Source: Caulobacteraceae bacterium (GTDB lineage: Bacteria; Pseudomonadota; Alphaproteobacteria; Caulobacterales; Caulobacteraceae). Taken from it: a stretch of DNA of 16,011 bases. Below the pieces are notes generated by a model that saw nothing but the letters and a program-made list of their open reading frames with translations, did not search any database and had not been told where the DNA came from. Position numbers and translations under genes: made by a program. The DNA lies in contig CANJYY010000016.1 of assembly GCA_947479185.1 (NCBI GenBank), forward strand, positions 1 to 16,011. Reading direction: 5' to 3'. This document shows positions 1,455-14,876 of the stretch, one piece after another. Numbering within the stretch: position 1 is the stretch's first letter; the number at the start of each line of letters is the position of its first letter.

Positions 1455-1500
1455 ACGCTTCCCCCCAGGGTGGTCTTGTTTTGTCGGAGCGTAACGGCCG

Positions 1501-1528
1501 GGCCCCGCATGGCAATGACCGCGGGGCC
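1501..1528. repeat. Perfect 8-bp inverted repeat, 12-nt loop
   Basis: GGCCCCGC (1501-1508) and GCGGGGCC (1521-1528) are exact reverse complements around a 12-nt centre. The repeat sits mid-way between two divergent genes and has no T-run, so an operator is more likely than a terminator. In GC-rich DNA such a repeat can occur by chance. Confidence 0.45.
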
Positions 1529-1566
1529 GATTTCCCCTTGCCGGCTTGAGAATTCCACGTTCCGCA

Positions 1567-1604
1567 GGGGAAGCCGAAGCGTGCGTCTTCCGCTTGCTTT
1601 CCCC
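1567..1604 (+). repeat. Imperfect long hairpin in the 5' leader of the acyl-CoA operon
   Basis: The left arm 1567-1581 (GGGGAAGCCGAAGCG) pairs with the right arm 1591-1604 (CGCTTGCTTTCCCC), with small internal mismatches, around a 9-nt loop. It ends 37 bp before the first start codon, so it could be an operator or an mRNA leader structure. Which of these applies is not determinable here. Confidence 0.4.
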
Positions 1605-1641
1605 GCCGTCCGGCTGGCATTTCGGGGTCAGGGAGAACGCC

Positions 1642-2748
1642 ATGATCACATTCGAGCTCAACGAAGAGCAGACCATGATCCGTGACAGCCTGAAGGGCTT
1701 CGCCGCGGAGGTGCTGGCTCCGGCCGCCCGGGCCATCGACGAGTCCGGCGAGATGCCGGCCGCCGTGATCCGCCAGGGCTGGGACTTCGGCCTGATCGCC
1801 GCCTCGATTCCCGAGGCCTACGGCGGCGGCGGCGGCGAGCGGTCGTGCATGACCAACGCCGTGGCGCTGGAAGCGCTGGGCGGCGGCTGCGCCAGCCAGA
1901 CCGTGGCCATCATGGCCCCCGGCCAGTTCGTCGGCGCCCTGCTCGACTTCGGGACCGAAGCGCAGAAGGCCGAGCACCTGCCCCGCTTCACCGGGACCGA
2001 GCCGGTGGCCGCGGCCGTGGCGATCCAGGAGAGCCAGTTCGGCTTCGCCGCCGGCGCGCAGCGGACCACGGCCACCCGCAAGGGCAACGGCTGGGTGCTG
2101 AACGGCGAGAAGCGCCTGATCCCGCTGGGCGACCGGGCTGACACCTTCCTGGTGCTGGCCAGCGAGCCGGGCGCCGCCGGCGCGGTCTCCGCCTTCTTCG
2201 TGCCGCGCGAGACCGCCGGCCTGACCGTTTCGGCCGAGACCGGCACCCAGGGCCTCAAGCCCGTGCCAAAGGCGAAGATCCTGCTCGAGGGCGTCGAACT
2301 GCCCGGCTCGGCCCGCCTCGGCGGCGACGCCGGTTTCGACGCCGCCCGACTGGTCAACCAGGCCCGGGTCGGCGCCGCGGCGGTCGCCGTGGGCCTGTCG
2401 CGCCAGGCGACCGACTTCGCCATTCCCTACGCCAAGGAGCGCGTCGCGTTCGGCGAGCCGATCGGCAAGAAGCAGTCGATCGCCTTCATGCTGGCCGACA
2501 TGCACATCGAGTGCGAGTCGATGCGCTGGATGGTCTGGAAGGCCGCCAGCCTGCTCGAACACAACGATCCAGGCGCGGCGAAGGCCGCCGTGCTGGCCCA
2601 GGACTATGTGCGGCGCAAGGCCGTGAAGATCGCCGACGACGCCCTGCAGATCTTCGGCGGTCACGGCTTCATCCGCGATCTGCCCCTCGAAATGTGGCTG
2701 CGCAACGCCCGCACCCTGACCGTCCTCGACGGTCCGGTCTCGGTTTAG
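1642..2748 (+). CDS. Acyl-CoA dehydrogenase family protein with degenerate active site
   Basis: A 368-aa flavoprotein-fold acyl-CoA dehydrogenase (ACAD), first gene of a three-gene operon. ATG 1642 was chosen because AGGGAG lies six bases upstream and the N-terminus then starts on the ACAD helical domain (FELNEEQ). The C-terminal domain is well conserved: an RVAFGEPIGKKQ block near 265-279 and ALQIFGGHGF from 334. Two hallmarks are abnormal. The FAD/substrate loop, normally TEPGAGSD, reads QESQFGFAAG (about 129-138). The catalytic Glu of the usual YEGT motif is Asp363 in LDGPVSV, after which the protein ends at once, without the usual C-terminal helix. The next gene encodes a complete ACAD 12 bp downstream. 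Known heteromeric ACADs of steroid catabolism (for example ChsE1-ChsE2 in mycobacteria) combine one competent and one degenerate subunit, so this may be a partner subunit. That role is inference; the family assignment is firm. Confidence 0.88.
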   Translation: MITFELNEEQTMIRDSLKGFAAEVLAPAARAIDESGEMPAAVIRQGWDFGLIAASIPEAYGGGGGERSCMTNAVALEALGGGCASQTVAIMAPGQFVGALLDFGTEAQKAEHLPRFTGTEPVAAAVAIQESQFGFAAGAQRTTATRKGNGWVLNGEKRLIPLGDRADTFLVLASEPGAAGAVSAFFVPRETAGLTVSAETGTQGLKPVPKAKILLEGVELPGSARLGGDAGFDAARLVNQARVGAAAVAVGLSRQATDFAIPYAKERVAFGEPIGKKQSIAFMLADMHIECESMRWMVWKAASLLEHNDPGAAKAAVLAQDYVRRKAVKIADDALQIFGGHGFIRDLPLEMWLRNARTLTVLDGPVSV

Positions 2749-2760
2749 GGAGCTCTGAAC

Positions 2761-3954
2761 ATGGCTGACTTCCGTCTCTCCGACATCGACCAGCAGATCC
2801 TCGACAAGGTCATCGAGGTGGGCAATTCGACCACCGCCCACACCCGCTACTACGAGGACCACGAGCACGAGTTCCCGCCCGCCAGGCTGGAGGGGGAACG
2901 CGGCTTCGAGGAGGTCTTCCCGCTGTTCGGCCAGCGCAAGCCCGACGACACGCCGATGATGACCTTCATGATGGCCGTCAGCATGGCGCGCGGCTCGACC
3001 AACGGCGTGGTGCGGGGCCTCGGCCTGGCCATGCCGGCCGGTCGCGCCAGCGGCCTGGGCAACGCCGCCCTGCAGTCGGCCGGCACGGCCGAACAGAAGG
3101 CCAAATGGGGCAACCTGTTCCTGGCCATGTCGATCACCGAGCCGGGCGCCGGCTCCGACACCAAGGCGATCTCGACCACCGCCCGCCTCGAGGGCGACGA
3201 ATGGGTGATCAACGGCGACAAGATCTTCGTCACCGACGGCGTCCGCGCCGACGGGGCCATCGTCTGGGCGACGATCGACAAGTCGGCCGGCCGGGCCGGC
3301 ATCAAGTCGTTCCTGGTGCTGAAGGACGCGCCGGGCTTCGAGTTGGTGCGCAAGGAAAAGAAGCTCGGCATCCGGGCGTCGGACACGGCCGCCTACGCCT
3401 TCCGTGACTGCCGCATCCCGCGCGAGAACCTGCTGGGCGACGACGAGACCGTGCCGAAAGGTGGCGGCTCGGCCGCCTACAAAGGCGTGATGAAGACCTT
3501 CAACATGACCCGCCCGGCCGTGGCCTCCGGCGGCGTCGCCAAGGCCATGGGGGCTCTGGAATTCGCCAGGTCGGCCATGGCCGCCGAGGGCGTCGAGGTC
3601 GACTGGGACAAGAGTTTCGCCCAGCGCGGCGCCGTCGAGCAGAAGCTGATCGAGATGGAGGCCGACACCGAGGCCGCCGCCCTGACCGTGCTGCACGCCG
3701 CCTGGCTCAGCGACACGCGCCAGCCGAACAACCTCGAGAGTTCGATCTGCAAGGCCAAGGGCGGCGAGGTCTGCCGGACCATCCCGCAGGCGGCCATGGA
3801 CGTGCTGGGCGGCATGTCCGTCAGCCACGACCACCTCGTGGAGAAGTACCTCCGCGACGGCCGGATCAGCGACATCTACGAAGGCACCGGCCAGATCCAG
3901 CGGCTGATCATCGCCCGCGAGATCCTCGGCTATTCCTCTGAAGAACTGACCTGA
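2761..3954 (+). CDS. Acyl-CoA dehydrogenase (catalytically complete)
   Basis: A 397-aa ACAD expected to oxidise an acyl-CoA to the 2,3-enoyl-CoA using FAD, passing electrons to electron-transfer flavoprotein. The flavin/substrate loop is intact: SITEPGAGSD, residues 124-133. So is the C-terminal signature IYEGTGQIQ, with Glu374 at the position of the catalytic base. The following RLIIAREIL helix is also present. GGAG at 2749-2752 lies eight bases before ATG 2761, and only 12 bp separate it from the preceding ACAD stop, so the two are co-transcribed and probably co-assembled. Residues 22-50 (TTAHTRYYEDHEHEF...) are an unusual N-terminal stretch rich in His, Tyr and acidic residues. The chain length and nature of the substrate cannot be told from sequence; the ligase downstream points to a free carboxylic acid as the starting compound. 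Confidence 0.92.
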   Translation: MADFRLSDIDQQILDKVIEVGNSTTAHTRYYEDHEHEFPPARLEGERGFEEVFPLFGQRKPDDTPMMTFMMAVSMARGSTNGVVRGLGLAMPAGRASGLGNAALQSAGTAEQKAKWGNLFLAMSITEPGAGSDTKAISTTARLEGDEWVINGDKIFVTDGVRADGAIVWATIDKSAGRAGIKSFLVLKDAPGFELVRKEKKLGIRASDTAAYAFRDCRIPRENLLGDDETVPKGGGSAAYKGVMKTFNMTRPAVASGGVAKAMGALEFARSAMAAEGVEVDWDKSFAQRGAVEQKLIEMEADTEAAALTVLHAAWLSDTRQPNNLESSICKAKGGEVCRTIPQAAMDVLGGMSVSHDHLVEKYLRDGRISDIYEGTGQIQRLIIAREILGYSSEELT

Positions 3955-3985
3955 CGGTCGCCTCGAGTTCAGGACAGGACACTCC

Positions 3986-5593
3986 ATGACCACCGCCACG
4001 GCTGCCCCGCCCGTCGATTTCGACCAGATGCCTACGCTCGCCCAGGTAGCGCGCTACCATGCCCGTGAGCGCGGCGACTCCACGGCCCTGGTGTTCGAGG
4101 GCCGGACGAGCAGCTTCGCCGACTTCGACCGGCGCACCAACCAGGTCGCCAACGCCCTCAAGGCGGCGGGCCTGTCGAAGGGCCAGCGCATCACCTACAT
4201 CGGCAAGAACAGCGACCACTATTTCGAGCTGCTGTTCGGCGCCGCCAAGGTCGGGGTGGTGATGACGCCGATAGGCTGGCGCCTCGCGCCGCCGGAGGTG
4301 GCCTACATCATCAGCGACTCGGCCGCGCCGCTGGTGTTCGTCGGACCGGAGCTGATCGGCCAGGTCGAGGCGGTCGCCGCCCATCTGGACGTCCGGCCGC
4401 AGGTCATCGCCATGGAGGCCGACGGCGCCGGCGACTACCCGCTGTTCGAGGTCTGGCGCGACGCCGCGCCGGCTACCGATCCAGGCGTCGAGATCACCGC
4501 CGGCGACGTGGCTGTGCAGCTCTACACCTCCGGCACCACCGGCAAGCCCAAGGGCGCCATGCTGACCCACGCCAACATCCTCGGCGGACGTCGCCAGGCG
4601 GCCGAGGCCAACATGCCCTGGAACAGCTGGAGCCCGGACGACGTCAGCCTGGTGGCCATGCCCGTGGCCCACATCGGCGGCACCGGCTGGGGCATCGTCG
4701 GCCTGTTCAACGGCGCCAAGGGCATCGTGGCCCGGGAGTTCGATCCGTTCCGCGTCCTCGACTTCATCGAGCAGGACCGCATCAGCAAGATGTTCATGGT
4801 GCCGGCGGCGATGCAGATCGTCGTGCGCCAGCCGCGCGCCCGCGAGGTCGACTACAGCCGGCTCAAGTACATCCTCTACGGGGCCAGCCCGATCCCGCTC
4901 GACCTGCTGCGCGAGTGCATGGAGGTGTTCGGCTGCGGCTTCTGCCAGCAGTACGGCATGACCGAGACCTGCGGCACGATCGTCTATCTGCCGCCCGAGG
5001 ATCACGACCCGGCCGGCAACGCCCGCATGCGCGCCGCCGGCCTGCCGATGCCCGGCGTCGAGCTGAAGATCATCGACGAGGAGGGCAAGACCCTGCCGCC
5101 GAACACCGTCGGCGAGGTGGCCACCCGCTCGGTCGCCAACATGGCCGGCTACTGGAACCTCGACGCGGCCACCAGGGCCACCATCGGCGAGGACGGCTGG
5201 CTGCGCACCGGCGACGCCGGCTACCTCGACGAGGACGGCTATCTGTTCATCCACGACCGGGTGAAGGACATGATCATCTCCGGCGCCGAGAACATCTATC
5301 CGGCCGAGGTGGAGAGCGCGGTCTATGGCCACCCGGCCGTGGCCGAGGTGGCGGTGATCGGCATCCCCGACGACAAGTGGGGCGAGGCGGTCAAGGCCGT
5401 GGTGGCGCTGAAGCCCGGCGCGACGGCCGACGCCGAGGACATCATCGCCTTCGCCCGCACCCGCATCGCCGCGTTCAAGGCCCCCAAGAGCGTGGACTTC
5501 ATCGACGCCCTGCCCCGCAACGCCTCGGGCAAGATCCTGCGCCGCGAACTGCGCGATCCCTACTGGGCGGGCCGCGAACGCCGGGTCAACTGA
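3986..5593 (+). CDS. AMP-dependent acyl-CoA synthetase/ligase (FadD-like)
   Basis: A 535-aa member of the ANL superfamily, which activates a carboxylic acid with ATP and CoA to acyl-CoA, AMP and PPi. Core motifs are in the right order: the P-loop LYTSGTTGKPKG at 179-190, YGMTET at 323-328, TGD ending at Asp410, then a DRVKDMIISGAENIYP hinge region, and the C-terminal PRNASGKILRRELR with the adenylation lysine at Lys516. The length is normal for medium/long-chain or aromatic acid ligases. It follows the second ACAD by 31 bp, with AGGAC repeats just before ATG 3986, so it is the third gene of the operon and plausibly supplies the CoA thioester for both dehydrogenases. Its stop overlaps the 3' end of the convergent SnoaL-like gene by eight bases. 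The substrate class (fatty, cyclic or aromatic acid) is not decided by visible motifs. Confidence 0.92.
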   Translation: MTTATAAPPVDFDQMPTLAQVARYHARERGDSTALVFEGRTSSFADFDRRTNQVANALKAAGLSKGQRITYIGKNSDHYFELLFGAAKVGVVMTPIGWRLAPPEVAYIISDSAAPLVFVGPELIGQVEAVAAHLDVRPQVIAMEADGAGDYPLFEVWRDAAPATDPGVEITAGDVAVQLYTSGTTGKPKGAMLTHANILGGRRQAAEANMPWNSWSPDDVSLVAMPVAHIGGTGWGIVGLFNGAKGIVAREFDPFRVLDFIEQDRISKMFMVPAAMQIVVRQPRAREVDYSRLKYILYGASPIPLDLLRECMEVFGCGFCQQYGMTETCGTIVYLPPEDHDPAGNARMRAAGLPMPGVELKIIDEEGKTLPPNTVGEVATRSVANMAGYWNLDAATRATIGEDGWLRTGDAGYLDEDGYLFIHDRVKDMIISGAENIYPAEVESAVYGHPAVAEVAVIGIPDDKWGEAVKAVVALKPGATADAEDIIAFARTRIAAFKAPKSVDFIDALPRNASGKILRRELRDPYWAGRERRVN

Positions 5594-5936
5594 CCGCGCC
5601 GTAGCAGGCGAACGAGCGCACCACCCCGTCGCCGGGACCGAACTCGAAGGTCTCGGCGACGGTCTGGCCCCGGTGATTGCAGTAGGTGATTGTCAGGCAA
5701 TCGTGGCCGGTCAGCACCGACTGCAGCGTGAACCGCAGGTCCGGCTGGGCGTCGAGCCCGCCGCGCCAGTAGCCGCGCAGCGCCTCCAGTCCCTCGACCC
5801 TGCCGTCGCCGAGCCGCGCCCGCGCCACCGGCGAGAGGAACACGATCTCCGGCGCGTAGTGCGACAGGATGCGGTCCAGGTCGTGGGCGTTCCAGGCCGC
5901 CAGCCATTCGCTGGCGAAGGTGTCGGGGTCGGGCAT
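5586..5936 (-). CDS. SnoaL-like / NTF2-fold small protein
   Basis: A 116-aa protein with the layout of the SnoaL/NTF2-like superfamily. The N-terminal helix FASEWLAAWNAHDLDRIL is followed by YAPEIVFLSP, then GLEALRGYWRGGL, then alternating beta strands ending in VVRSFACYG. These cone-shaped folds include isomerases, cyclases, dehydratases and non-enzymatic binding proteins, so no specific reaction is claimed. GGAG lies about nine bases before ATG 5936. It is 36 bp downstream of the RNase gene on the same strand, so it may be the last gene of that operon. Its 3' end overlaps the convergent ligase gene by eight bases, sharing the sequence TCAACTGA. No signal peptide or membrane segment is visible. 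Confidence 0.8.
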   Translation of the reverse strand: MPDPDTFASEWLAAWNAHDLDRILSHYAPEIVFLSPVARARLGDGRVEGLEALRGYWRGGLDAQPDLRFTLQSVLTGHDCLTITYCNHRGQTVAETFEFGPGDGVVRSFACYGAVS

Positions 5937-5972
5937 CCGGGCAGCTCCGCTGACTCGTCGGCGGACAGGACG

Positions 5973-7568
5973 TCAGATCCGGCGTTTACCGGCAAGACCG
6001 GCGCGCACCTTCGACAGGATGGCCTCGCGGGCCGCGTCGTCCGGCGCCTCGTCCAGCGCCTCGTCCAGCGCCATGAGGAAGCCGGCGCGGGCGTTGTGCC
6101 AGTCCAGCGCCGCGGCGGCCTCCGGCGCGATACGCGGAGTTTCGCCCTGCGCATGTTCCGCCCGCGCCCTGTTCAGCACGAAGGTCTCGTCGAGTTGCGG
6201 CGCCAGCAGCTGATCGGCCGGCAGGCCCGCCGCGACGAGCCGCTCGCGCAGCCCCTCGACCGCGCGGGGCTCGCCGTGGGCCATGAACACCGAGCCGCGC
6301 ACCGGCAGCCTCGCCTTGGCCCAGGTCACCAGACCCGTGGCGTCGGCGTGGCCCGAATAGGCGTCGAACATGCGGATCTCGGCCTGGACGCGGATTTCCT
6401 CGCCCTGGATGGTCACGCGGCGGGCGCCATCGGCCAGCAGGCGGCCGAGCGTGCCGGCGGCCTGGAAGCCTGACAGCAGCACCGTCGTCTCCTTGCGCCA
6501 AAGCAGCCGCTTGAGATGCTTGCGGATGCGGCCGGCGTCGCACATGCCGCTGGCGGCGAGGATCACGTGCCAGCCCTTGAGCCGATCAAGGCCGTCGCTG
6601 TCCCAGGGCTTGTCGAGATAGCGCAGCCGTTGCGACTGCCGGGCCCCCTCGAACGGGTTGCGACCCAGGTCCTTATTCCAGCCCCGCTCAAGGAACACCT
6701 CGGTCGCCTCGATGGCCAGCGGGGAGTCGAGGAACACGTCGCCGCCGGGCGCCTCGCCGCTGTCCATCACCTCGACCAGGTCGGCCAGCAGCTCCTGTGA
6801 CCGCTCCACCGCGAAGGCCGGGATCAGCAGCGGGCCGCCGCGGGCGTGGGCGTCGCGCAGCTCCTGGGCCAGGGCCTTGCGCCGCGTGACGGCGTCGGCG
6901 ACGACCCGTTCACGGTCGCCGTAGGTCGACTCCATGATCAGGTGATCGAGTCCGGCCGGCCCCTGGGGATCGGGCACGAAGGCGCTGCCGCCCGGCCCGA
7001 TGTCGCCGGAGAAGAACAGCCGCATCGGCTCGCCGTCGCCCTCGACCAGCACCTCGATCGAGGCGGCGCCGAGGATGTGGCCGGCGTCCCAGTAGATGGC
7101 GGTGACGCCCGGCGCGACCGTGACCGGCTCGCCCAGCTTGACCCGCTCGAACTGGCCCATGACGCGTTCGGCGTCGCGCTCGGTGTAGATCGGCTCGACG
7201 ACCGGCCGGCCGCGCTGCTCGTTGCGGCGGTTGAGATGCTTGACCTCGGCCTCCTGGATGCCGCCGGCGTCGGCCAGCATCACCCGGCACAGGTCGCGCG
7301 TCGCGGCGGTGGCGTGGATCGGCCCCTCGAACCCGGCCAGCATCAGCTTCGGCAGCAGGCCGGAGTGGTCGATGTGGGCGTGGGTCAGCAGCACCGCGTC
7401 GACCGTGCCCGGATCGAACGGAAACGGATCGTAGTTGAGCGCCTTCAGGGTCTTGGAGCCCTGGAACATGCCGCAGTCGATCAGCACCCGGGCCTTGTCG
7501 GTGCGCAGCTCGGCGCAGAAGCCGGTGACGCAGCCGGCCGCGCCGTGGAAGGTCAGGGTGGGGGTCAT
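5973..7568 (-). CDS. MBL-fold/beta-CASP metallohydrolase, predicted RNA-processing nuclease
   Basis: A 531-aa zinc-dependent metallo-beta-lactamase-fold protein of the beta-CASP/RMMBL type (CPSF73/Ysh1-like), predicted to cut RNA. Zinc ligands are visible: THAHIDH (His63, His65, Asp67, His68), His164 in DAGHILGA, and Asp188 in FFSGDIG. The beta-CASP region follows, with STYGDRE near its start. Near the C-terminus, SGHAD (His407) and FMAHGE (His431) fit beta-CASP motifs B and C. About 75 residues beyond the core form an extra tail, rich in Ala, Asp and Glu, that includes a duplicated ALDE. ATG 7568 overlaps the stop of the PRPP synthetase-like gene as ATGA, so translation is coupled. The partners (phosphorylase and PRPP synthetase) suggest a role in feeding RNA-derived nucleotides into salvage; that is inference, and exo- versus endo-activity is unknown. 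Confidence 0.88.
   Translation of the reverse strand: MTPTLTFHGAAGCVTGFCAELRTDKARVLIDCGMFQGSKTLKALNYDPFPFDPGTVDAVLLTHAHIDHSGLLPKLMLAGFEGPIHATAATRDLCRVMLADAGGIQEAEVKHLNRRNEQRGRPVVEPIYTERDAERVMGQFERVKLGEPVTVAPGVTAIYWDAGHILGAASIEVLVEGDGEPMRLFFSGDIGPGGSAFVPDPQGPAGLDHLIMESTYGDRERVVADAVTRRKALAQELRDAHARGGPLLIPAFAVERSQELLADLVEVMDSGEAPGGDVFLDSPLAIEATEVFLERGWNKDLGRNPFEGARQSQRLRYLDKPWDSDGLDRLKGWHVILAASGMCDAGRIRKHLKRLLWRKETTVLLSGFQAAGTLGRLLADGARRVTIQGEEIRVQAEIRMFDAYSGHADATGLVTWAKARLPVRGSVFMAHGEPRAVEGLRERLVAAGLPADQLLAPQLDETFVLNRARAEHAQGETPRIAPEAAAALDWHNARAGFLMALDEALDEAPDDAAREAILSKVRAGLAGKRRI
6044..6072. repeat. 12-bp tandem repeat, about 2.4 copies, within the RNase gene
   Basis: GCGCCTCGTCCA occurs at 6044-6055 and again at 6056-6067, followed by a partial third copy. 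It keeps frame and encodes the doubled ALDE motif in the acidic C-terminal tail. Slippage here could lengthen or shorten the tail without a frameshift. Confidence 0.8.
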
Positions 7569-8449
7569 GCGGGGATCTCGCTTCGCAGGGCGTCGGCCAG
7601 CCGGCCGGTCAGGTCGAGCGCGTTGGTCAGGTGGGGGATGGAGTCGCTGGAGACGATGCGGCGGGCCCCGGCCTCGCGCAGCCGGTCCAGGGCCTCGGCG
7701 TCGAACAGGGCGTGGGCCACGGCGACGTCGACGGACGCGGCGCCGGCCTGGAGCAGGTGATGGATCGCCTGGGCCAGGGTGCAGCCGCTGGAGCAGATGT
7801 CGTCGAGCAGCAGGGTCGCGCGGCCCGCGACCGGCGTGGCGTCGTCGAGCGTCAGGCGCACCTCGCGGTCGCCCAGCCGCTGTTTGTCGAACGCGGTCCA
7901 GTCCGTCCCGAGCGTCATGGCGGCGGCCTGGACCCCGGGACGGGACTCGCTGTCCGGCCCGACGATCAGCGGCCGCTCGCCGGCCGCAACCAGGGCGGCC
8001 AGATCGCCGCCGATGTCGATGTTGGTCGCCGGAATGCCGAGCGCCTCGGTCAGCGACGCCGTCCGGTGCAGATGGGCCTGCACCGTCACCAGCCGGTCGA
8101 AGGCGCCGCCCAGCCAGCCGCAGATCAGGTCGCGGCTGAGCGGCTGGCCCGGGGCGAAAACCATGTCCTGGCGCAGGTAGCCAAGGTAGGGCGTGACCAG
8201 CACCAGCCGGGAGACGCCGGCCCGGCGCCAGGCGTCGGCCGCCTGCAGCAGCGGCACCAGCCGCGTGTTCGGCTGATTCAGCGCGCGATAGACGATGACC
8301 GTGGTCGCGCGGGTCACCGGCACGGTGGGCAGGGTCTCGCCGTCGGGAAAGGTCTTCACCTCGACGATGGCCGAGGCGACGCCCAGCGCCGCCGCCAGTC
8401 GCGCCACCGGCGCCGCGTCGCCGGGAAAGCCGTGCACCTGGATCGTCAT
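7565..8449 (-). CDS. Ribose-phosphate pyrophosphokinase-like protein (divergent PRPP synthetase)
   Basis: A 294-aa member of the PRPP synthetase family, shorter than the typical 310-320 aa. Canonical enzymes convert ribose-5-phosphate and ATP to PRPP and AMP. Recognisable blocks are FPDGE (34-38), [10 protein letters not shown] (86-95, the ATP-binding flexible region), QAHLHR (124-129, matching the DLHA histidine region), GPDSESRPG (164-172) and the PRPP loop [12 protein letters not shown] (213-224). In ordinary synthetases the loop reads DDMIDTGGT; here the third acidic residue is Ser220 and a glycine is Cys223. Its ATG overlaps the phosphorylase stop (ATGA, 8449-8446), and its own stop overlaps the RNase start in the same way. 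A cell normally has a separate housekeeping prs, so this copy is probably a specialised paralog of the operon. Product and direction of reaction are uncertain. Confidence 0.87.
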
Positions 8450-9993
8450 GGCGCGGCGACCCGGAAGCCCGACTCGGCGCCCGCGGCCTCGGCGGCGAAG
8501 GCGAAGTCGGACGGGTCGGAGGCGTAGACCCGGTAGAGCGGGTCGCCCTTGCGGACGACATCGCCGATGCGGTGGAACAGCTCGATGCCGGCGCCGGCGT
8601 CGGTCGGCGCGCCGGCCAGCCGGGCGACCGTGGCGATGCGCAGGCAGTCGATCGACTCCACGCGCCCATCCCGCTCGGCCGTCGCCTCCATGCCCAGGGT
8701 TCCCGGGCCCGCGTTCAACGGCGAGGCGCCCTGGGCCTCCATGATCGCCCGCATCTTCTTCAGGGCCGCGCCGGACTCCAGCAGCTCGCGCGCCCGCGCC
8801 TCGGCCATGCCGCCCGGCAGGTCAGGGTCGGCGTCGAGCACCCGGGCGGCCAGGCGGATGGCCTTTTCGCGCAACTCCGCCGGCGCGCCAGGCTCATTGC
8901 CGAGCACGGCCATCACGTCGCGCGCCTCCAGCCACGGGCCGACGCCCCGGCCGATCGGCTGGCTGCCGTCGGTGAAGACCACCTCGATCTCGAGCCCGAG
9001 GTTGGTGGCGACATATTCGAACAGCTTGCGCAGCCGCAGGGCCGCGCGGTTGTCGCGCAACTTGGCCGACGGCCCGATCGGCAGGTCGAGCACCAGCCGC
9101 CCGACACCGGCGGCGACCTTCTTGGACAGGATCGAGGCGACCATCTGTTCCGGCGTGTCGATCGACAGCGGCCGCTCGACCGAGATCAGCACGTCGTCGG
9201 CCGGCGACAGGTCGACCTTGCCGCCCCAGATGACGCAGCCGCCGGTGCGTTCGACGACATCGTGCATCTCGTCCTCGGTGAGGTCGACGCGGGCAAGCAC
9301 CTCCATGGTGTCGGCGGTGCCCGCCGGCGAGGTGATGGCGCGGGACGAGGTCTTGGGGATGGTCAGGCCGTGGGCCGCGACGATGGGGGCGATGATCAAC
9401 GAGGTGCGGTTGCCCGGGATGCCGCCGATGCAATGCTTGTCGACGACCCGGCGGCCGTTCCAGTCGAGGCGCGCGCCGGCGGCGATCATGCCGCGGGTCA
9501 GGCCCAGCGTCTCCTCCGGCGACATGAACCGGGCGCAGGCGACGAGGAAGGCGGTGACCTCCATGTCGCTCCAGCGATGAGCGGCCAGGTCCCGCGCGAC
9601 GGCGGCGAGCGCGGCGTCGTCCAGGGTGTGGCCGTCGACCTTGGCGCGGATGGCCGAAAGGCTCTCCGGCGCGCGGGCCTGCGAGATATGGATGAGGTCA
9701 CCCGGCTTGACGCCGAGGCGGCGGAACAGCGGCTCGGGCAGGCCGATCTCGTCCGGGGCCAACAGGCCGTCGTCGCCGATCATGGTGGTGGCCAGCAGGC
9801 TGCGGGACCCGGCCCTCAGCTCGATCCGGCGCGAGCCGCGCAGTCGCTCCGGACGGAGCACATGGCTGCAGCGCGCCAGCACGGCGACATTCTCGCGAAA
9901 GCTGTCCAGACCCAGCGGCCGGGCCTTGAGCACCCCGCCGCCATCGGCCGGCGCCTCGTCCGTCGCCCCGTCGCCAGTCCTCAATCTGATCAT
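8446..9993 (-). CDS. Thymidine phosphorylase family / archaeal-type NMP (AMP) phosphorylase
   Basis: A 515-aa nucleoside-phosphate phosphorylase. It carries an N-terminal domain of about 85 residues before the pyrimidine phosphorylase-like helical core, as in archaeal AMP phosphorylases and in the proteobacterial 'putative thymidine phosphorylase' group. Diagnostic motifs are [15 protein letters not shown] (184-198) and [16 protein letters not shown] (214-229). Classical DeoA has a GRGLGHTGGT-type loop instead. Archaeal relatives convert AMP, CMP or UMP plus phosphate to free base and ribose-1,5-bisphosphate. ATG 9993 was chosen because homologous sequence begins soon after it and a GGGGG sits just upstream. 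An ATG at 10038 would place the start inside the FNR-like box. The gene heads an operon with the PRPP synthetase-like and RNase genes, joined by ATGA overlaps. AMP phosphorylase activity is inferred from motifs. Confidence 0.9.
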
Positions 9994-10159
9994 GCTACCC
10001 CCGACGGTGAACCATGACGTTCCGATGCCCGCCTGCATTGAGCGACATCAAAGGGCCGGGCCGCTTGCAGATTTCGTCGGCTAGCCAAACGCGCCCTGCT
10101 CCTCCACATGTCATGCAACGGAACCAGCGTTCGCCAAATTCAGATCCGGAGCACACGGA
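9994..10159. promoter_or_regulatory. Divergent intergenic region, phosphorylase operon and GST
   Basis: These 166 bp separate two divergent starts. They contain the FNR/FixK-like box at 10038-10051 and an 8-bp palindrome GGCTAGCC at 10079-10086. For the GST gene, GGAG (10148-10151) precedes ATG 10160 by eight bases. No strong sigma70 -35/-10 pair is evident in either direction, which fits an activator-dependent promoter for the phosphorylase operon. Confidence 0.5.
10038..10051 (-). promoter_or_regulatory. FNR/FixK/Anr-like binding site
   Basis: On the plus strand it reads TTGAG-CGAC-ATCAA, on the operon's strand TTGAT-GTCG-CTCAA. It matches nine of the ten defined bases of the FNR/FixK consensus TTGAT-N4-ATCAA. 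Its centre is about 51 bases from the phosphorylase ATG. Placement near -41.5 would put the transcript start about ten bases upstream of that ATG, a class II activator geometry. A chance match is possible. Confidence 0.5.
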
Positions 10160-11038
10160 ATGTCCGACGCCTCAGCCTACACCCCGCCCAAGGTCTGGAC
10201 CTGGAACAAGGAGAGTGGGGGGCGCTTCGCCAATATCAACCGGCCGATCGCCGGGCCTACGCACGACAAGGACCTGCAGGTCGGCAAGCATCCGCTGCAG
10301 CTCTATTCGCTGGCCACGCCGAACGGCGTGAAGGTCACGGTGATGCTCGAGGAGCTGCTGGCCAAGGGCCACAGCGGCGCCGAGTACGACGCCTGGCTGA
10401 TCAACATCGGCTCGGGCGACCAGTTCGGCAGCGGCTTCGTGTCGGCCAACCCGAACTCGAAGATCCCCGCCATGGTCGACCACAGCGATCCGGCCAAACC
10501 GATCCGCATCTTCGAGTCCGGCGCGATCCTGATCCACCTGGCCGAGAAGTTCGGCGCGTTTCTGCCGACCGACCCTGCGGCCCGGGCCGAGACCCTGTCC
10601 TGGCTGATGTGGCAGATGGGCAGCGCGCCCTACCTCGGCGGCGGCTTCGGCCACTTCTACGCCTACGCCCCGTTCAAGATGGAATACCCGATCGACCGCT
10701 TCGCCATGGAGGTGAAGCGCCAGCTGGACGTGCTCGACCGCCGTCTGGGCGAGAGCGAGTATCTGGCCGGGCCGGACTATACCATCGCCGACATGGCCGT
10801 CTGGCCCTGGTACGGCGCCCTGGCCAAGGGTCTGGTCTATGAGGCCGGCGAGTTCCTGCAGGTGCAGGACTACAAGCACGTCCAGCGCTGGACCGACCAG
10901 ATCGCCCAGCGGCCCGCCGTAAAGCGCGGCCGGATGGTCAACCGGGTCATGGGCGATCCCGCCAGCTGCCTGCCCGAGCGGCACGACGCCGGCGACTTCG
11001 ACACCAAGACCCTCGACAAGGTCGCCAAGCCGGACTGA
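10160..11038 (+). CDS. yghU: YghU-type (nu-class) glutathione S-transferase, disulfide-bond oxidoreductase
   Basis: A 292-aa protein that closely follows remembered E. coli YghU (about 288 aa) along its whole length. It shares the N-terminal extension KVWTWNKESGG, the FANINRPIAGPTH block, KHPLQLYS, and the C-terminal ERHDAGDF tail. YghU/YfcG enzymes bind two glutathione molecules and reduce organic disulfides and peroxides, with little classical transferase activity. The thioredoxin-like domain shows the TPN motif (Thr53-Pro54-Asn55) used in place of a catalytic Tyr or Ser, the cis-Pro in KIPAM (Pro103) and the glutathione-binding Glu119-Ser120. The helical domain carries GGGFGHFYAYAPFK and the ADMAVWPW segment. 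It is a cytosolic stress enzyme. It is divergent from the phosphorylase operon, with a short-chain dehydrogenase gene 77 bp downstream. Confidence 0.95.
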   Translation: MSDASAYTPPKVWTWNKESGGRFANINRPIAGPTHDKDLQVGKHPLQLYSLATPNGVKVTVMLEELLAKGHSGAEYDAWLINIGSGDQFGSGFVSANPNSKIPAMVDHSDPAKPIRIFESGAILIHLAEKFGAFLPTDPAARAETLSWLMWQMGSAPYLGGGFGHFYAYAPFKMEYPIDRFAMEVKRQLDVLDRRLGESEYLAGPDYTIADMAVWPWYGALAKGLVYEAGEFLQVQDYKHVQRWTDQIAQRPAVKRGRMVNRVMGDPASCLPERHDAGDFDTKTLDKVAKPD

Positions 11039-11044
11039 CCGGCC

Positions 11045-11083
11045 GGGCGGCGCCTTTCTTCACCACCAAGCGAGGGCGGCGCC
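11045..11083. repeat. 10-bp direct repeat between GST and SDR genes
   Basis: GGGCGGCGCC occurs at 11045-11054 and 11074-11083, 29 bp apart start to start, in the 77-bp gap. Each copy holds the palindrome GGCGCC, so the copies can also pair with each other, and a short T-rich run follows the first. It might act as a weak terminator or a protein site; function unknown. Confidence 0.35.
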
Positions 11084-11115
11084 ACGGGCGCGCGCCCCGA
11101 CATCAGGGACGAACC

Positions 11116-11886
11116 ATGGATCTGCAGCTCAAGGGCAAGAACGCCGTCATCCTCGGCGGCACGCGCGGCATCGGCCGGGCGATCGCCGAGACTCTCGCGG
11201 CCGAGGGCGCCAACGTCGCCGTCTGCGCCCGCAACGCCGAACAGGTGGCCGAGGCCGTCGCGGCGCTGGGCGCCACGGGCGTGAAGGCGCTGGGGGCCTC
11301 GGTCGACATCATGGATGGGCCAGCCCTCAAGGCCTGGATCGCCGCGGCCGGCGAGGAGCTGGGCGGCATCGACATCCTGGTGTCCAACGCCGGAGCCATG
11401 GCCCAGGGCGCCGACGCCGGGGCCTGGACGCAGAACTTCCAGCTCGACGTGCTGGGCCTGGTCAACGCCTTCGACGCGGCCAAGCCCTTCCTGCTGAAGT
11501 CGGCGGAGACGCACGGCGACGCCTCGGTGGTGATCATCGCCTCGGTCTCGGCGGCCGAATCCGACGCGGCCAGCTCCTACGGCCCGATCAAGGCGGCGCT
11601 GATCCACTACGCCAAGGGCCTGTCGCGGCAGTACGCGCCCAAACACCTGCGCACCAACGTCGTCTCGCCCGGCACCGTCTATTTCGAGGGCGGCGTCTGG
11701 CACATGGTCGAGAAGAACGCGCCGGAGATGTTCAAGGGCGCCATGGCGCGCAACCCGATGGGCCGGATGGCCACGCCGCAGGACATCGCCAACGCCGCCG
11801 TCTTCCTCAGCAGCCCGCTGTCGAGTTTCACCAGCGGCATCAACATGCTGGTCGATGGCGCGATCAGCCGGCGGGTAAACTTCTAG
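11116..11886 (+). CDS. Short-chain dehydrogenase/reductase (SDR family)
   Basis: A 256-aa classical SDR, an NAD(P)-dependent oxidoreductase of alcohols or ketones. The cofactor motif GGTRGIGRA begins at Gly14, SNAG (90-93) replaces the usual NNAG, and the catalytic set is Ser143 (IASVS), Tyr155 and Lys159 in YGPIK. The conserved SPGTV segment (184-188) and the C-terminal FTSGINMLVDGA segment fit the family. AGGGA at 11105-11109 ends six bases before ATG 11116. The basic residue after the glycine motif (Arg17) and CARN after strand 2 favour NADP(H), which is an inference. It may be co-transcribed with the GST. It converges on the FAD oxidase gene, with the two stop codons only 10 bp apart. Substrate unknown. 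Confidence 0.92.
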   Translation: MDLQLKGKNAVILGGTRGIGRAIAETLAAEGANVAVCARNAEQVAEAVAALGATGVKALGASVDIMDGPALKAWIAAAGEELGGIDILVSNAGAMAQGADAGAWTQNFQLDVLGLVNAFDAAKPFLLKSAETHGDASVVIIASVSAAESDAASSYGPIKAALIHYAKGLSRQYAPKHLRTNVVSPGTVYFEGGVWHMVEKNAPEMFKGAMARNPMGRMATPQDIANAAVFLSSPLSSFTSGINMLVDGAISRRVNF

Positions 11887-11900
11887 GGGCCGGACCCTAG
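11883..11900. terminator. Inverted repeat carrying both convergent stop codons
   Basis: CTAGGG (11883-11888) and CCCTAG (11895-11900) form a 6-bp inverted repeat with a 6-nt loop. The TAG of the SDR gene lies in one arm and the TAG of the FAD oxidase gene in the other. It could work as a short bidirectional terminator, though it has no T-tract and the stem is short. Confidence 0.35.
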
Positions 11901-13240
11901 TTCGCGCGGCCCATCCAGGGGTGGAACCGGCCCTCGGGGTCCCAGACGGCGCGGATCTGGTCGAGGCGCTTCATGTTGGCGTCCGACAGGAAGCGGTCCG
12001 GCCGGCGGGCGAGGTTCTCGTCGGCCAGCTGGATGCCGCGGCTGTGCGTCGACAGGGCCTGCATGTGGCGGGTCGCCCAGTCGCCGTGGGCCGCCTCGTC
12101 CGAGGCCTTCCGCAGGCCGCCATAGAGCGCAAGATAGGTGCGCGCCTCGACCGAGAAGGCCATGTCCGGCCGGCTGGCGGGCGGGTTCCAGTTGAGCCAC
12201 AGCGCATGACTGGGCGCCGGCGGCTGGCTGTCGGCGATGGCGCGCAGGGCCGGCAGCAGCGGCCCGATCGGCTCGTCCATCCACATGTTGTCGGCCTGCC
12301 AGCGGGTGTTCGGCAGGAACAGGGTCTTCTCGCCGGTCTTCATCATCTGGCCCAGCGACATCGGGATCAGCGGCAGGGTCAGGCTGGCTTTGCGGGCGAC
12401 CGGGTCGGTGGTCATGAAGCGCACGGCCTCGAGCGCCTCCTTGCGGCTGTCGGCCAGGACCGGGGAGAAGACCTCCAGGCCGGGCGCGAAAATGCCGATG
12501 GCCTTGCGGTTCATGACCATCTGGAACTCGACGCTCGGCGACACCGACGGCCCGACGCGGTCGGCCCAGGTGAACACCTCCTCCAGATGCTTCATGCGGA
12601 ACACCTGCAGCTTCAGCCCGATGTATTTCGGCCGGGCGTGCAGCCTGAGGTGAAAGCAGACGACGACGCCGAAGAAGCCGGGGCCGGATCCGCGCGCGGC
12701 CCAGAACAGATCGGCGTTCTCGCTCTCGCTGGCGTGCACCACCCGCCCGTCAGCGAGGACCACGTCGATGCCGGTGACGTTCTCGCAGCCGAGGCCGAGG
12801 CGACGGCTGTTCCAGCCAAAGCCACCCTGCAGCAGGAAGCCGCCGATGCCGACGGTCCAGGCGTGGGCGACCGGAAAAAACAGGTCTGCATTTTTCACGG
12901 CCGCGTCGACGTCGCCGCAGTGGGCGCCGGGGCCGACGGTGGCGGTGCGGGCGACGCTGTCGACCGTGATCGCGTTCAGCCGTGAGACGTCGATCAGCAG
13001 GCCGTCCTCGCGGATGTGGTTCTGGGCCCAGCTGTGGCCGCCCGAGCAGATGCTGACCTTGCGCCCCTCGCGGCCCGCCCGGCGGACGGCGGCGATGACG
13101 TCGAGCACGTCGTTGGCCTGGACCACCACGGCGGGGCGGCGGCCCGGCTCGCGGGCGTTGAAGCTGGTGCCGAGCACGGCGGCGTCGAAGCCCGGCGCGC
13201 CGCGTTCGAGGGTCACGCCCGTCTGACCTGAGGATTTCAT
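11897..13240 (-). CDS. FAD-linked oxidase, berberine-bridge-enzyme-like (FAD_binding_4 + BBE)
   Basis: A 447-aa flavoprotein oxidase/dehydrogenase of the vanillyl-alcohol-oxidase superfamily. The N-terminal FAD domain shows PAVVVQAND, then VSICSGGHSWAQ, where His69 is the expected 8-alpha covalent flavin attachment. TVGIGGFLLQGGFG (129-142) follows, then GLGCENVTGIDVVLADG. Enzymes with two covalent flavin bonds have a Cys just before this segment (the VCPTVG pattern); here the aligned residue is Ala127, so only the His link is expected. The C-terminus ends in a BBE-like WDPEGRFHPW segment. ATG 13240 overlaps the stop of the hydrolase gene (ATGA) and lacks its own Shine-Dalgarno sequence, so it is translationally coupled. 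Members oxidise sugars, alkaloids, phenolics or polyketides; the partner hydrolase suggests a phenolic substrate, which is inference. Confidence 0.9.
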   Translation of the reverse strand: MKSSGQTGVTLERGAPGFDAAVLGTSFNAREPGRRPAVVVQANDVLDVIAAVRRAGREGRKVSICSGGHSWAQNHIREDGLLIDVSRLNAITVDSVARTATVGPGAHCGDVDAAVKNADLFFPVAHAWTVGIGGFLLQGGFGWNSRRLGLGCENVTGIDVVLADGRVVHASESENADLFWAARGSGPGFFGVVVCFHLRLHARPKYIGLKLQVFRMKHLEEVFTWADRVGPSVSPSVEFQMVMNRKAIGIFAPGLEVFSPVLADSRKEALEAVRFMTTDPVARKASLTLPLIPMSLGQMMKTGEKTLFLPNTRWQADNMWMDEPIGPLLPALRAIADSQPPAPSHALWLNWNPPASRPDMAFSVEARTYLALYGGLRKASDEAAHGDWATRHMQALSTHSRGIQLADENLARRPDRFLSDANMKRLDQIRAVWDPEGRFHPWMGRAN

Positions 13241-14067
13241 GCGGAGGGTCCGGTGCTGAAGGCGGCGTGGAGGTCGGGCAGGATGGTCGCCAGGTGGCTC
13301 ATCTCCTGGGCGCAATGGACCAGCAGGTCGGCGGCCTGGGCGGGCGGCAGCGGCGCGAGCCGGCTGGCCGCGCGGCCGAGCACGGCGCCGACCGGGCCGG
13401 GCATGCCGCGCGGGCGGACGTTCTCGCCGCCGAGCCAGAAGCGCGAGCGCATCTCCGCCCCGCCCGGGACCGGCCGGACATGGTGGATCAGCCAGCCGGT
13501 CTCCACCGGCGTTCCGGCGATGCCGCCGCGAGCGCAGATGGCCACGGCCCCGTCCCGCGCCAGCCGGGCCTCGTCGAGGCCGAGGCTGGCGGGCGGCACG
13601 AAGCGGATGGTCAGGCCCATGCGGCCCGCGCCGACATACTCGACGACGTTGGAGGTGCGGCCGATGTAGTGAGTCAGGTCGTCGCGGCCATCGGACCAGG
13701 CGACATGCACATGGGCCTTGGGGTGCCAGAGCTTGTAGCGTTCGGCGTGGCTGCCGTGCCAGGCGAACCACCAGTCCCACATGGCCGGAGTCACCCCAGG
13801 CATCGGCGTCTTGACGAAGACCCGGGCCGAACCGTCGGGCGCGACCGTGTAGCCGGTCTCCACCGGCCAGTCGCCGTCATCGAGCAGGTCCCCTGCCCGC
13901 GCCACCGGCGGCAGCAGTTCGTGGGCCACGGGTCCGATCGCGAGAGCTTCGCGGACGTCATTCGACAGCGGCGCCATGTCCGGCCGGAAGAACCGGGCCG
14001 TCGGGCTGCGCGCGAGGTCGGCGGCGCTGTAGCCGAGGTAGAGGTCTTGTTCGGGGACGGGCGGCAT
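13237..14067 (-). CDS. DAPG hydrolase (PhlG)-like C-C bond hydrolase
   Basis: About 276 aa from ATG 14067, or 291 aa from an in-frame ATG at 14112. It resembles 2,4-diacetylphloroglucinol hydrolase PhlG, which removes an acetyl group by cleaving a carbon-carbon bond using zinc. From memory, PhlG binds zinc through His129, Glu160, His270 and Glu274. Counting from the longer start, this protein has His130 in KLWHPKAH, Glu158 in NVVEYV, and His266 and Glu270 in VHCAQEMSH, the same spacing and order. The WDWWFAWHGSHAERYK segment is typical of the family. The start is uncertain: GAG precedes 14067 at a usable distance, while 14112 would be nearly leaderless from the predicted promoter. It is the first gene of a two-gene unit with the FAD oxidase and lies opposite a TetR gene. 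The natural substrate need not be DAPG. Confidence 0.82.
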   Translation of the reverse strand: MPPVPEQDLYLGYSAADLARSPTARFFRPDMAPLSNDVREALAIGPVAHELLPPVARAGDLLDDGDWPVETGYTVAPDGSARVFVKTPMPGVTPAMWDWWFAWHGSHAERYKLWHPKAHVHVAWSDGRDDLTHYIGRTSNVVEYVGAGRMGLTIRFVPPASLGLDEARLARDGAVAICARGGIAGTPVETGWLIHHVRPVPGGAEMRSRFWLGGENVRPRGMPGPVGAVLGRAASRLAPLPPAQAADLLVHCAQEMSHLATILPDLHAAFSTGPSA

Positions 14068-14119
14068 GGGCGTCTCGGATGAGCGAACGCCGGCCCCGAG
14101 CCGGGCCGCCATCCTGTTA

Positions 14120-14143
14120 TTGGGACTATTCCCAAATTTGGGA
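14120..14143. promoter_or_regulatory. Palindromic operator, three TTGGGA half-sites
   Basis: TCCCAAATTTGGGA (14130-14143) is a perfect 14-bp palindrome. A further half-site TTGGGA at 14120-14125 forms a second inverted repeat with TCCCAA (14130-14135) around CTAT. The middle half-site is shared. The stretch is markedly AT-richer than its surroundings and lies between the divergent hydrolase and TetR genes. It is the probable binding site of that TetR protein; the assignment rests on position. Confidence 0.75.
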
Positions 14144-14153
14144 TATCTGTCAA
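14125..14153 (-). promoter_or_regulatory. Sigma70-type promoter of the hydrolase-oxidase unit
   Basis: On the minus strand, TTGACA (14153-14148) is followed by a 17-bp spacer and AATAGT (14130-14125). The -35 is a perfect consensus. The perfect palindrome occupies nearly the whole spacer and touches the -10, so a bound repressor would exclude polymerase. The predicted start of transcription is near 14118. Confidence 0.65.
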
Positions 14154-14175
14154 TTGTGCCGAAACCGGCTAGGAT
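14147..14175 (+). promoter_or_regulatory. Probable promoter of the tetR gene
   Basis: CTGTCA (14147-14152), 17 bp, TAGGAT (14170-14175). Each box matches the consensus at four of six positions. Its -35 overlaps the oppositely directed TTGACA, so the two promoters compete for the same DNA beside the operator. The predicted transcript would start near 14182, just ahead of the AGGGAG at 14185-14190. Confidence 0.45.
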
Positions 14176-14198
14176 CGGGCCGTCAGGGAGTCGCCCAT

Positions 14199-14876
14199 TT
14201 GACCGTGCAGGGCCTGTTCGCCACCGAAGCCAGCAATCTGGGCAAGAGCGCCCGCACGCGCGCCCGGCTGATGGACGCGGCGGTGCAGCTGTTCGCGCGC
14301 GACGGCTTCGAGGCGACCTCCGTCAACGAGATCGCCCGCCAGGCCGGGGTGGTGAACGGCACCTTCTATGTGCACTTCCGCGACCGGGACGAGATCGCCG
14401 CCGCCGTGGCGCTGGCGATCGGCCAGAACGTCGTGCGCCAGCTGGACGAGGCGATGGTCGGTATCGAGGACGCGGTCGAACGGTCGAGCCTCGCCACCCG
14501 CCGGTTCATCGATCTGGCCGCCAGCCAACCGGACTGGGGCGCGGCGCTGGTGCGGGCGGTGCTGACGTTCCGCGACCTGCGCGACAGCATGATCGCCTAT
14601 CTGCGGGCGGACCTGCAGCGGGGCGTCGACCAGGGCCTGTTCACGGTCGCGATCGACGACCTGCTGATCGACACCTTCGCCTCGATGACCCTGGGGGCCC
14701 TCGCCGGCCGTCTGCGCGGCGACTTCGGGCCCGAGGCCGGGGCGCGGGTCTCCGAGCTGCAACTGCGGATGCTGGGCGTGCCGGCAGACCGGGCGCGAGA
14801 GGTCTGCGGCCGAGACGTCCCGGCCCTGACCCTCGAGCTCGCGCCCTTGCCGAAGGGGCTGGCGAAAGCCGGCTAG
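14199..14876 (+). CDS. TetR/AcrR-family transcriptional regulator
   Basis: A 225-aa one-component regulator. The N-terminal helix-turn-helix spans roughly residues 17-63: ARTRARLMDAAVQLFARDGF, then TSVNEIARQAGVV, then NGTFYVHFRDRDE. The rest is a variable helical ligand-binding and dimerisation domain. The start chosen is TTG 14199, because AGGGAG (14185-14190) lies eight bases upstream. The same frame is open up to an ATG at 14079, but that would run through the operator and both promoters and add residues without family resemblance. It is divergent from the PhlG-like hydrolase, as TetR regulators (PhlH/PhlF) accompany phlG in Pseudomonas. It probably represses the hydrolase-oxidase unit and itself, with release by a phenolic or acyl ligand (inference). 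Its stop overlaps the stop of the next, convergent gene by four bases. Confidence 0.9.
   Translation: MTVQGLFATEASNLGKSARTRARLMDAAVQLFARDGFEATSVNEIARQAGVVNGTFYVHFRDRDEIAAAVALAIGQNVVRQLDEAMVGIEDAVERSSLATRRFIDLAASQPDWGAALVRAVLTFRDLRDSMIAYLRADLQRGVDQGLFTVAIDDLLIDTFASMTLGALAGRLRGDFGPEAGARVSELQLRMLGVPADRAREVCGRDVPALTLELAPLPKGLAKAG

Follow-up and report, generated by a model that had tools for sequence, protein, structure and literature searches.

The DNA analysed here, called the window, is a stretch of 16,011 nucleotides from a Caulobacteraceae bacterium (assembly GCA_947479185.1, contig CANJYY010000016.1, positions 1 to 16,011), whose genome (G000) has 2.77 Mb and is 74% complete. By its open reading frames, the minus strand of the window carries an operon of three genes, which encode a nucleoside 5'-monophosphate (NMP) phosphorylase (NMPP) at 9993-8446, then a paralogue of phosphoribosyl pyrophosphate (PRPP) synthetase (PRS) at 8449-7565, and then a beta-CASP nuclease (CASP) at 7568-5973. 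The main features of the locus are the following:

8446..9993, minus strand: NMPP, archaeal-type nucleoside 5'-monophosphate phosphorylase, 515 amino acids (TIGR02645; nearest solved chain 4ga5)
7565..8449, minus strand: PRS, PRPP-synthetase paralogue, 294 amino acids, with HLHR and GPDxES active-site variants (TIGR01251)
5973..7568, minus strand: CASP, nuclease of the beta-CASP metallo-beta-lactamase fold, 531 amino acids (PF00753, PF10996, PF07521)
8446..8449, minus strand: ATGA stop/start overlap of NMPP and PRS (window sequence; homologous junctions)
7565..7568, minus strand: ATGA stop/start overlap of PRS and CASP (window sequence; homologous junctions)
10038..10051, minus strand: FixK/FNR-like box TTGATGTCGCTCAA, 45 to 58 bases upstream of the NMPP start (one-mismatch consensus match)

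NMPP passes the cut-offs of TIGR02645 (594.1 bits, cut-off 434.6) and NF003338 (644.1 bits, cut-off 434), and the thymidine-phosphorylase models stay under theirs on it (NF004490, 203.5 against 269; TIGR02643, 144.9 against 570.7). Its nearest solved chain is 4ga5 (E 7.1e-93), which is labelled there as a putative thymidine phosphorylase and which we take to be the T. kodakarensis AMP phosphorylase. The alignment of the two shows a common GGxPGN[RK]T motif and a second archaeal-type motif. Among 113 aligned NMPP sequences, a set that was not dereplicated, archaeal-type motifs stand in place of the pattern of three thymidine-phosphorylase-like proteins: the G-L-G-H of thymidine phosphorylases reads A-I-T-S, as in 4ga5, Ser222 is present in 113/113 copies and Arg196 in 112/113. 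Two copies fused to PhnN (L158 and L160) were too short for the length filter of this alignment, and their motifs were read separately. The scores and motifs bear out the archaeal type assigned by the first-pass annotation, which had been made from the letters alone, and on them an ordinary thymidine phosphorylase is rejected. NMPP very probably makes or uses ribose-1,5-bisphosphate (R15P).

The two exact ATGA overlaps that the first-pass annotation had read between the three same-strand genes are confirmed at 8449-8446 and 7568-7565. They are not due to chance, since 4-nt overlaps recur at most homologous junctions of a dereplicated set that includes the window (49/73 NMPP-PRS, 22/31 PRS-CASP and 13/20 CASP-NMPP junctions). 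The genes are ordered NMPP-PRS-CASP or CASP-NMPP-PRS, with 4-nt overlaps kept in both orders, and in a Reyranella-type clade, which has no PRS, NMPP is joined directly to CASP. The 116 NMPP loci collected were dereplicated to 105, of which 87 are flanked by 3.5 kb or more on either side; these comprise 41 loci with PRS and CASP, 20 with PRS only, 16 with CASP only, five PhnN fusions, one adjacent PhnN and four with none of these genes. The 87 loci were not sampled at random: one scan for close relatives supplied 57 of the fetched loci, PRS-less carriers were preferred in one round, genomes G105 and G205 were taken because PhnN lies next to NMPP, and long open frames led to the choice of eight stretches from seven genomes, three of these genomes proving to be non-fusions. 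The distance rule used for scoring misses some links, such as L084, which is scored as alone with CASP and PRS just upstream, and L162 and L181, where PRS lies further away than the rule allows.

The module is patchy, with NMPP matches of E < 1e-100 in 7/41 near relatives. NMPP is over cut-off in 38/289 Alphaproteobacteria (class survey) and in 43/398 genomes of the phylum (phylum survey), and the gene context was viewed in 18/38 carriers of the former and in 36/45 genomes of the latter. In the phylum survey 30 genomes are PRS-linked, four have PhnN fused to NMPP, two have neither and none has both. Operon-type PRS (>300 bits) occurs in 21 genomes of the class survey, being beside NMPP in 16, apart from it in two and without any NMPP in one, and the remaining two have NMPP on other contigs of fragmented assemblies; NMPP and PRS lie on different contigs of fragmented assemblies in G269 and G111. 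The first-pass annotation held that the three genes act together and that rare adjacency in other genomes would speak against this. The survey of three-gene adjacency finds that they are not rarely adjacent: in a large part of the Pseudomonadota sample they stay linked, PRS adjoining NMPP in 61/87 and CASP in 57/87 dereplicated full-flank loci and 30/36 genomes being PRS-linked, although the count of NMPP carriers with an adjacent operon-type PRS in the class survey is only 15/38.

The module is also plasmid-borne, with 118 plasmid records at E 1e-30. On the plasmids of L089-L092 it lies beside heavy-metal P-type ATPases, some with LemA/TPM and VTT genes, on Acidovorax plasmid p1-T1 ppk2 is nearby, and on an Azospirillum ramasamyi plasmid (L085) NMPP and CASP are adjacent without PRS, upstream of a HlyD/RbbA-type transporter set. 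A divergent NMPP stands alone in L114, L113 and L115 (G113, G042 and G087) and in similar alphaproteobacterial genomes of 1.4-2.2 Mb; no PRS, CASP or PhnN is found in the stretches around it, and the carriers are perhaps host-associated bacteria that salvage NMPs. Two contigs labelled Candidatus Marinimicrobia (L067 and L071) carry a module that falls within the alphaproteobacterial modules of the tree, and these contigs are possibly mis-binned.

The search for enzymes able to use R15P, made with the TIGR02322 profile, found PhnN, which makes PRPP from R15P according to the discussion of PMC9700705. PhnN and NMPP form a single open reading frame in five genomes of five families (L096, L157, L158, L159 and L160); in G105 the fusion has 678 residues, with PhnN at 3-179 and NMPP at 186-666. 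In each of the five the PhnN part is over the TIGR02322 cut-off, all five have the Walker A motif and the archaeal NMPP motif, which in one copy reads KASSRAITS, and PGSRI replaces PGNRT in the fused NMPPs. The fused NMPPs are one clade (SH-aLRT 99), so that independent inventions are rejected and the count is one origin plus a separate adjacency in L097, a member of another clade with a separate PhnN divergently adjacent to NMPP. In L165 PhnN lies about 1.2 kb from NMPP; this locus fails the rules for PhnN distance and for flanks and is marked as alone in the tree. Three genomes (G690, G561 and G617) have a second, unfused PhnN, and the fused one thus looks dedicated to NMPP. The fusion as part of a phosphonate operon is rejected on the neighbours of L096, the one annotated fusion locus of five, which are nadC and TRAP transporter genes.

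PhnN is found in 0/61 PRS-linked loci against 6/26 others (Fisher p 0.00046; 87 loci, a sample partly chosen on PhnN) and, in the phylum survey, in 0/30 PRS-linked genomes against 4/6 others (p 0.00025, the four fusions being non-independent by descent). The seven genomes in which PhnN is linked to NMPP (L165 among them) lack an operon-type PRS altogether, and 7/7 have a housekeeping-type copy. The exclusion concerns linkage; a genome-wide exclusion of PRS and any PhnN is false, since unlinked PhnN coexists with the PRS operon. Because the linkage of PRS and of PhnN to NMPP is mutually exclusive, PRS would occupy the same slot as PhnN. The fusion argues for R15P as a compound handled by NMPP and for PRPP as the goal, and it supports a predicted route from NMP through R15P to PRPP. 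The PRPP end point, one of the outcomes that the first-pass annotation had considered, gains independent support from the fusions, and PRPP is probably the end product of the module.

NMP phosphorylase has been discussed, mainly in archaea, as feeding RuBisCO, and the first-pass annotation had suggested that a PRPP-type enzyme replaces this branch. R15P isomerase (TIGR00511) is over cut-off in 0/48 genomes carrying NMPP or PRS, with weaker relatives in 20/48, and RuBisCO (PF00016) is matched in 4/48, as one strong match, two weak ones and a fragment at a contig end. No RuBisCO match is found in the 74% complete window genome. Five of 47 class-survey matches were dropped from the isomerase, RuBisCO and PhnN searches, being only thymidine-phosphorylase-like. 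The strong match, in G277, is a cluster of RuBisCO large and small subunits (L112:10531-14187) that is separated from the module by about 3 kb and lies on the other strand, with a HAD-family gene adjoining, and is read as an ordinary carbon-fixation cluster. A RuBisCO and isomerase branch is rejected on these counts, the sole strong RuBisCO beside a module being a separate cluster; the archaeal branch is missing from most carriers, as had been supposed.

The FixK/FNR-like box at 10038-10051 is one mismatch from the consensus and is the only match with at most one mismatch in the 16-kb window, where 0.33 are expected by chance. By this upstream box the operon is a predicted member of the FixK/FNR-controlled operons. 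Boxes are found upstream of 29/69 loci of a first set, not dereplicated, against 6.7% of control windows, four of the 29 lying at or beyond the first codon that could serve as a start. In a repeat on new dereplicated loci, 10/46 have the box against 4.4% of controls (p 2.5e-5), and all ten are NMPP-first (10/37). Recurrent neighbours, among which Reyranella-type loci weigh heavily, are Usp, Crp/Fnr regulators, PAS histidine kinases, heavy-metal ATPases, cytochrome c and HemN. In Bradyrhizobium diazoefficiens the transcripts of bll3117-bll3116-bll3115 are up 5.1-, 7.7- and 15.4-fold at 0.5% oxygen, with protein log2 changes of 2.1, 4.4 and 2.9 (Table 2 of PMC6515984). Two of the three genes, bll3117 and bll3115, fall 6.6- and 30.6-fold without fixK2 and are listed as FixK2-dependent (Table 2 of PMC9104804). 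The box printed for the Bradyrhizobium operon in PMC9104804 is ATGATCTGGGTCAA, and the same 14-mer was found independently in L166 and L167, which group in the tree with a Bradyrhizobium plasmid copy (L087).

On balance, the operon is best read as a low-oxygen-induced nucleotide salvage module in which R15P would be recycled to PRPP and not fed to RuBisCO. CASP would start the breakdown of RNA, a likely source of nucleotides, and NMPP would phosphorolyse 5'-NMPs (NMP + Pi -> base + R15P). R15P would then be converted to PRPP by the PhnN kinase fused to NMPP in some lineages, and with the help of the modified operon PRS in the lineage of the window. Phosphoribosyltransferases would use this PRPP to rebuild nucleotides needed by a hypoxic, energy-limited cell. 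The PhnN route costs one phosphoanhydride bond, against two in ordinary PRPP synthetase. The gene linkage, the fusions, the residue patterns and the enrichment of the box are observed here, and the low-oxygen induction is published for B. diazoefficiens; all substrates and the direction of flux are inferred. The first-pass interpretation, of an RNase, a phosphorylase and a PRPP-type enzyme acting in chain, survives in part: its archaeal-type NMPP, gene linkage, missing RuBisCO branch and PRPP end point are supported, and low-oxygen control and the PhnN alternative are new.

Several observations weigh against this salvage module. Known PRPP synthetases use ribose-5-phosphate (R5P) and not R15P, and the literature consulted reports no assay of a bacterial member's enzyme activity. 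On the AMP-phosphorylase equivalog TIGR03327, NMPP scores 454.3, under the cut-off of 535, which does not establish its membership of that equivalog. An operon-type PRS is adjacent in only 15/38 NMPP carriers of the class survey and a linked PhnN in 2/38, so that many NMPPs go without either; by the distance rule, 16/87 loci have NMPP and CASP without adjacent PRS or PhnN and 4/87 have none of the three. Unlinked PhnN is present in ten PRS-linked genomes (G640, G476, G431, G362, G442, G574, G613, G667, G026 and G081), and among 47 NMPP carriers PhnN shows no significant excess where operon-type PRS is missing (5/22, against 2/25 with it; p 0.23). CASP is absent from 6/6 PhnN loci of the 87-locus set, and CASP-first loci rarely have the box (0/9 in the new set and 2/14 in the first). 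The 2019 Bradyrhizobium table marks the three genes as neither direct FixK2 targets nor bacteroid-induced (PMC6515984).

CASP carries the Lactamase_B (PF00753), Beta-Casp (PF10996) and RMMBL (PF07521) domains with HxHxDH, its nearest solved chain is the RNase TTHA0252 (E 2.1e-57), and the THAHxDH metal motif is kept by 97% or more of the sequences in an alignment of 80 that includes the window copy. That CASP feeds the NMPP pathway is proposed tentatively. It is also plausible, if short of probable, that regulation alone is shared and CASP is a regulatory or quality-control RNase of the low-oxygen regulon which supplies nothing to NMPP. Beta-CASP enzymes are endonucleases or 5' exonucleases with many roles, NMPP and PRS occur without CASP in 20/87 loci, and the lack of CASP in the PhnN loci fits as well; against this, whichever the gene order, CASP still overlaps NMPP or PRS directly by 4 nt, also in the clade that has no PRS.

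PRS passes TIGR01251 (151.8 bits, cut-off 113), and its best-scoring family model is that of the ribose-phosphate diphosphokinases NF005537/PRK07199, yet with 303.6 it is under the cut-off of 322. The window genome has a second, housekeeping-type PRPP synthetase match of 295.7 bits on another contig (C315), and the operon PRS is therefore a paralogue. In the class survey a second PRS match at E 1e-40 is found in 16/19 genomes over the NF005537 cut-off. The catalytic Lys/Arg, His and Asp and the R5P loop of PRPP synthetases are kept: Lys189, Arg191, His126, Asp166, RQD93-95, Asp36, Glu38, Asp216, Asp217 and Thr224, which we take to have catalytic or R5P-loop roles, are invariant in 85 operon-type PRS, a set that includes near-copies and four sequences without an NMPP link in their stretch (L107-L110). 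H[LM]HR, which spans the catalytic His and the residues after it, is found in 85/85 of these against 0/11 housekeeping copies, the latter taken from 12 stretches of which L198 gave no sequence. The pyrophosphate (PP) loop reads GPDxE[SA] in 85/85 operon-type PRS against 0/11 housekeeping copies, of which 10/11 have PDxGG; the operon PRS of the window lacks this housekeeping loop, and a single operon copy contains a PDxGG string as well. The altered residues are not in the three top-scoring alignments with PRPP synthetases of solved structure. They presumably sit where diphosphate and ribose bind, and a changed reaction of the operon PRS is thus possible. In G310 and G215 (L105, L106, L107 and L108) an NMPP-CASP pair is on one contig and an operon-type PRS alone on another, which is a natural case of PRS detached from NMPP.

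That PRS itself handles R15P is possible, with the doubt on the larger side. In the boldest form of this idea, which is rather doubtful, the operon PRS would be an enzyme of a new kind with the PRPP-synthetase fold, taking R15P itself as its substrate, and a non-homologous counterpart of PhnN in a bacterial, RuBisCO-free, low-oxygen pentose bisphosphate route. Examples of such reactions would be R15P + ADP -> PRPP + AMP or R15P + AMP -> R5P + ADP.

It is unlikely that PRS works as a second PRPP synthetase of the ordinary kind (R5P + ATP -> PRPP + AMP) without normal feedback control, with NMPP working on AMP or synthetically (base + R15P -> NMP) and the operon only raising PRPP and salvage capacity at low oxygen. 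The invariant catalytic residues and the TIGR01251 score agree with it; the housekeeping-type copy that is usually also present (16/19 and 7/7 genomes, and the window genome) and the H[LM]HR and GPDxE[SA] replacements do not, and the PhnN-NMPP fusions would be left unexplained. Energy recovery is more improbable still: PRS would run R15P + AMP -> R5P + ADP or PRPP + AMP -> R5P + ATP, and nucleotides from RNA would thereby become a source of ATP and pentose phosphate in hypoxia. This fits the low-oxygen induction and the altered PRS loop, and AMP is a natural leaving group and acceptor in the PRPP-synthetase fold, but the reaction is, by our estimate, probably uphill, and a fused PhnN in the same slot would consume ATP, which argues for the formation of PRPP and not of ATP. 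The least probable alternative, an NMPP that is a thymidine or pyrimidine nucleoside phosphorylase in an operon of ordinary nucleoside salvage, has on its side the product names in public records and Ser287 and Lys291, presumably nucleobase-binding and conserved with the three thymidine-phosphorylase-like proteins, and against it the model scores, the A-I-T-S motif, Ser222 and Arg196 given above.

If the proposed salvage module is correct, R15P would have, through a widespread bacterial NMPP tied to PRPP, a general function beyond phosphonate metabolism, and energy-starved cells would have a cheaper route to PRPP. The module would also explain a cluster named thymidine phosphorylase, ribose-phosphate pyrophosphokinase and metallo-beta-lactamase (MBL)-fold, which belongs to a low-oxygen regulon and is given no role in the published tables consulted. 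Thanks to the PhnN-NMPP fusions, a direct test of the pathway needs only a single polypeptide. NMPP, PhnN and FixK2 control are each known, and their combination was not found stated in the literature searched, mostly at the level of titles and abstracts, so that an earlier notice of the PhnN-NMPP fusion is possible.

Other genes of the window lie on either side of the operon. A gene that may be co-transcribed with it is absent from the annotated recurrent neighbour families of homologous loci, and is thus outside the conserved set:

5586..5936, minus strand: SnoaL-like gene, 36 bases downstream of CASP (PF12680)

A DAPG-hydrolase (PhlG-type) domain protein (13237-14112, minus strand) adjoins an FAD-binding protein (11897-13240, minus strand), and a TetR regulator (14079-14876) is divergent from this pair.

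The T. kodakarensis pentose bisphosphate pathway, or NMP shunt, as described in PMC9700705, has a homologous phosphorylase with the archaeal signature motifs and the NMP -> R15P step that is predicted here. Unlike that system, the bacterial NMPP is without R15P isomerase in the carriers surveyed (0/48) and is often joined to PRS and sometimes to PhnN. With the PhnN of phosphonate metabolism (TIGR02322), the fusions share the R15P -> PRPP step and N-terminal domains over the family cut-off; unlike it, the fused PhnN is joined to NMPP and its neighbours in L096 are not phn genes. NF005537/PRK07199 is the best family model for the operon PRS, but HLHR and GPDxES depart from the housekeeping enzymes. 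TTHA0252 of Thermus and aCPSF1/FttA of archaea have the beta-CASP fold and catalytic motifs in common with CASP, which, unlike them, sits inside a nucleotide-metabolism operon. A counterpart of the whole module is bll3117-bll3116-bll3115 of B. diazoefficiens, which has the same three products and gene order, the low-oxygen induction and the same kind of box, and which appears in PMC6515984 and PMC9104804 as table entries, with no pathway assigned there.

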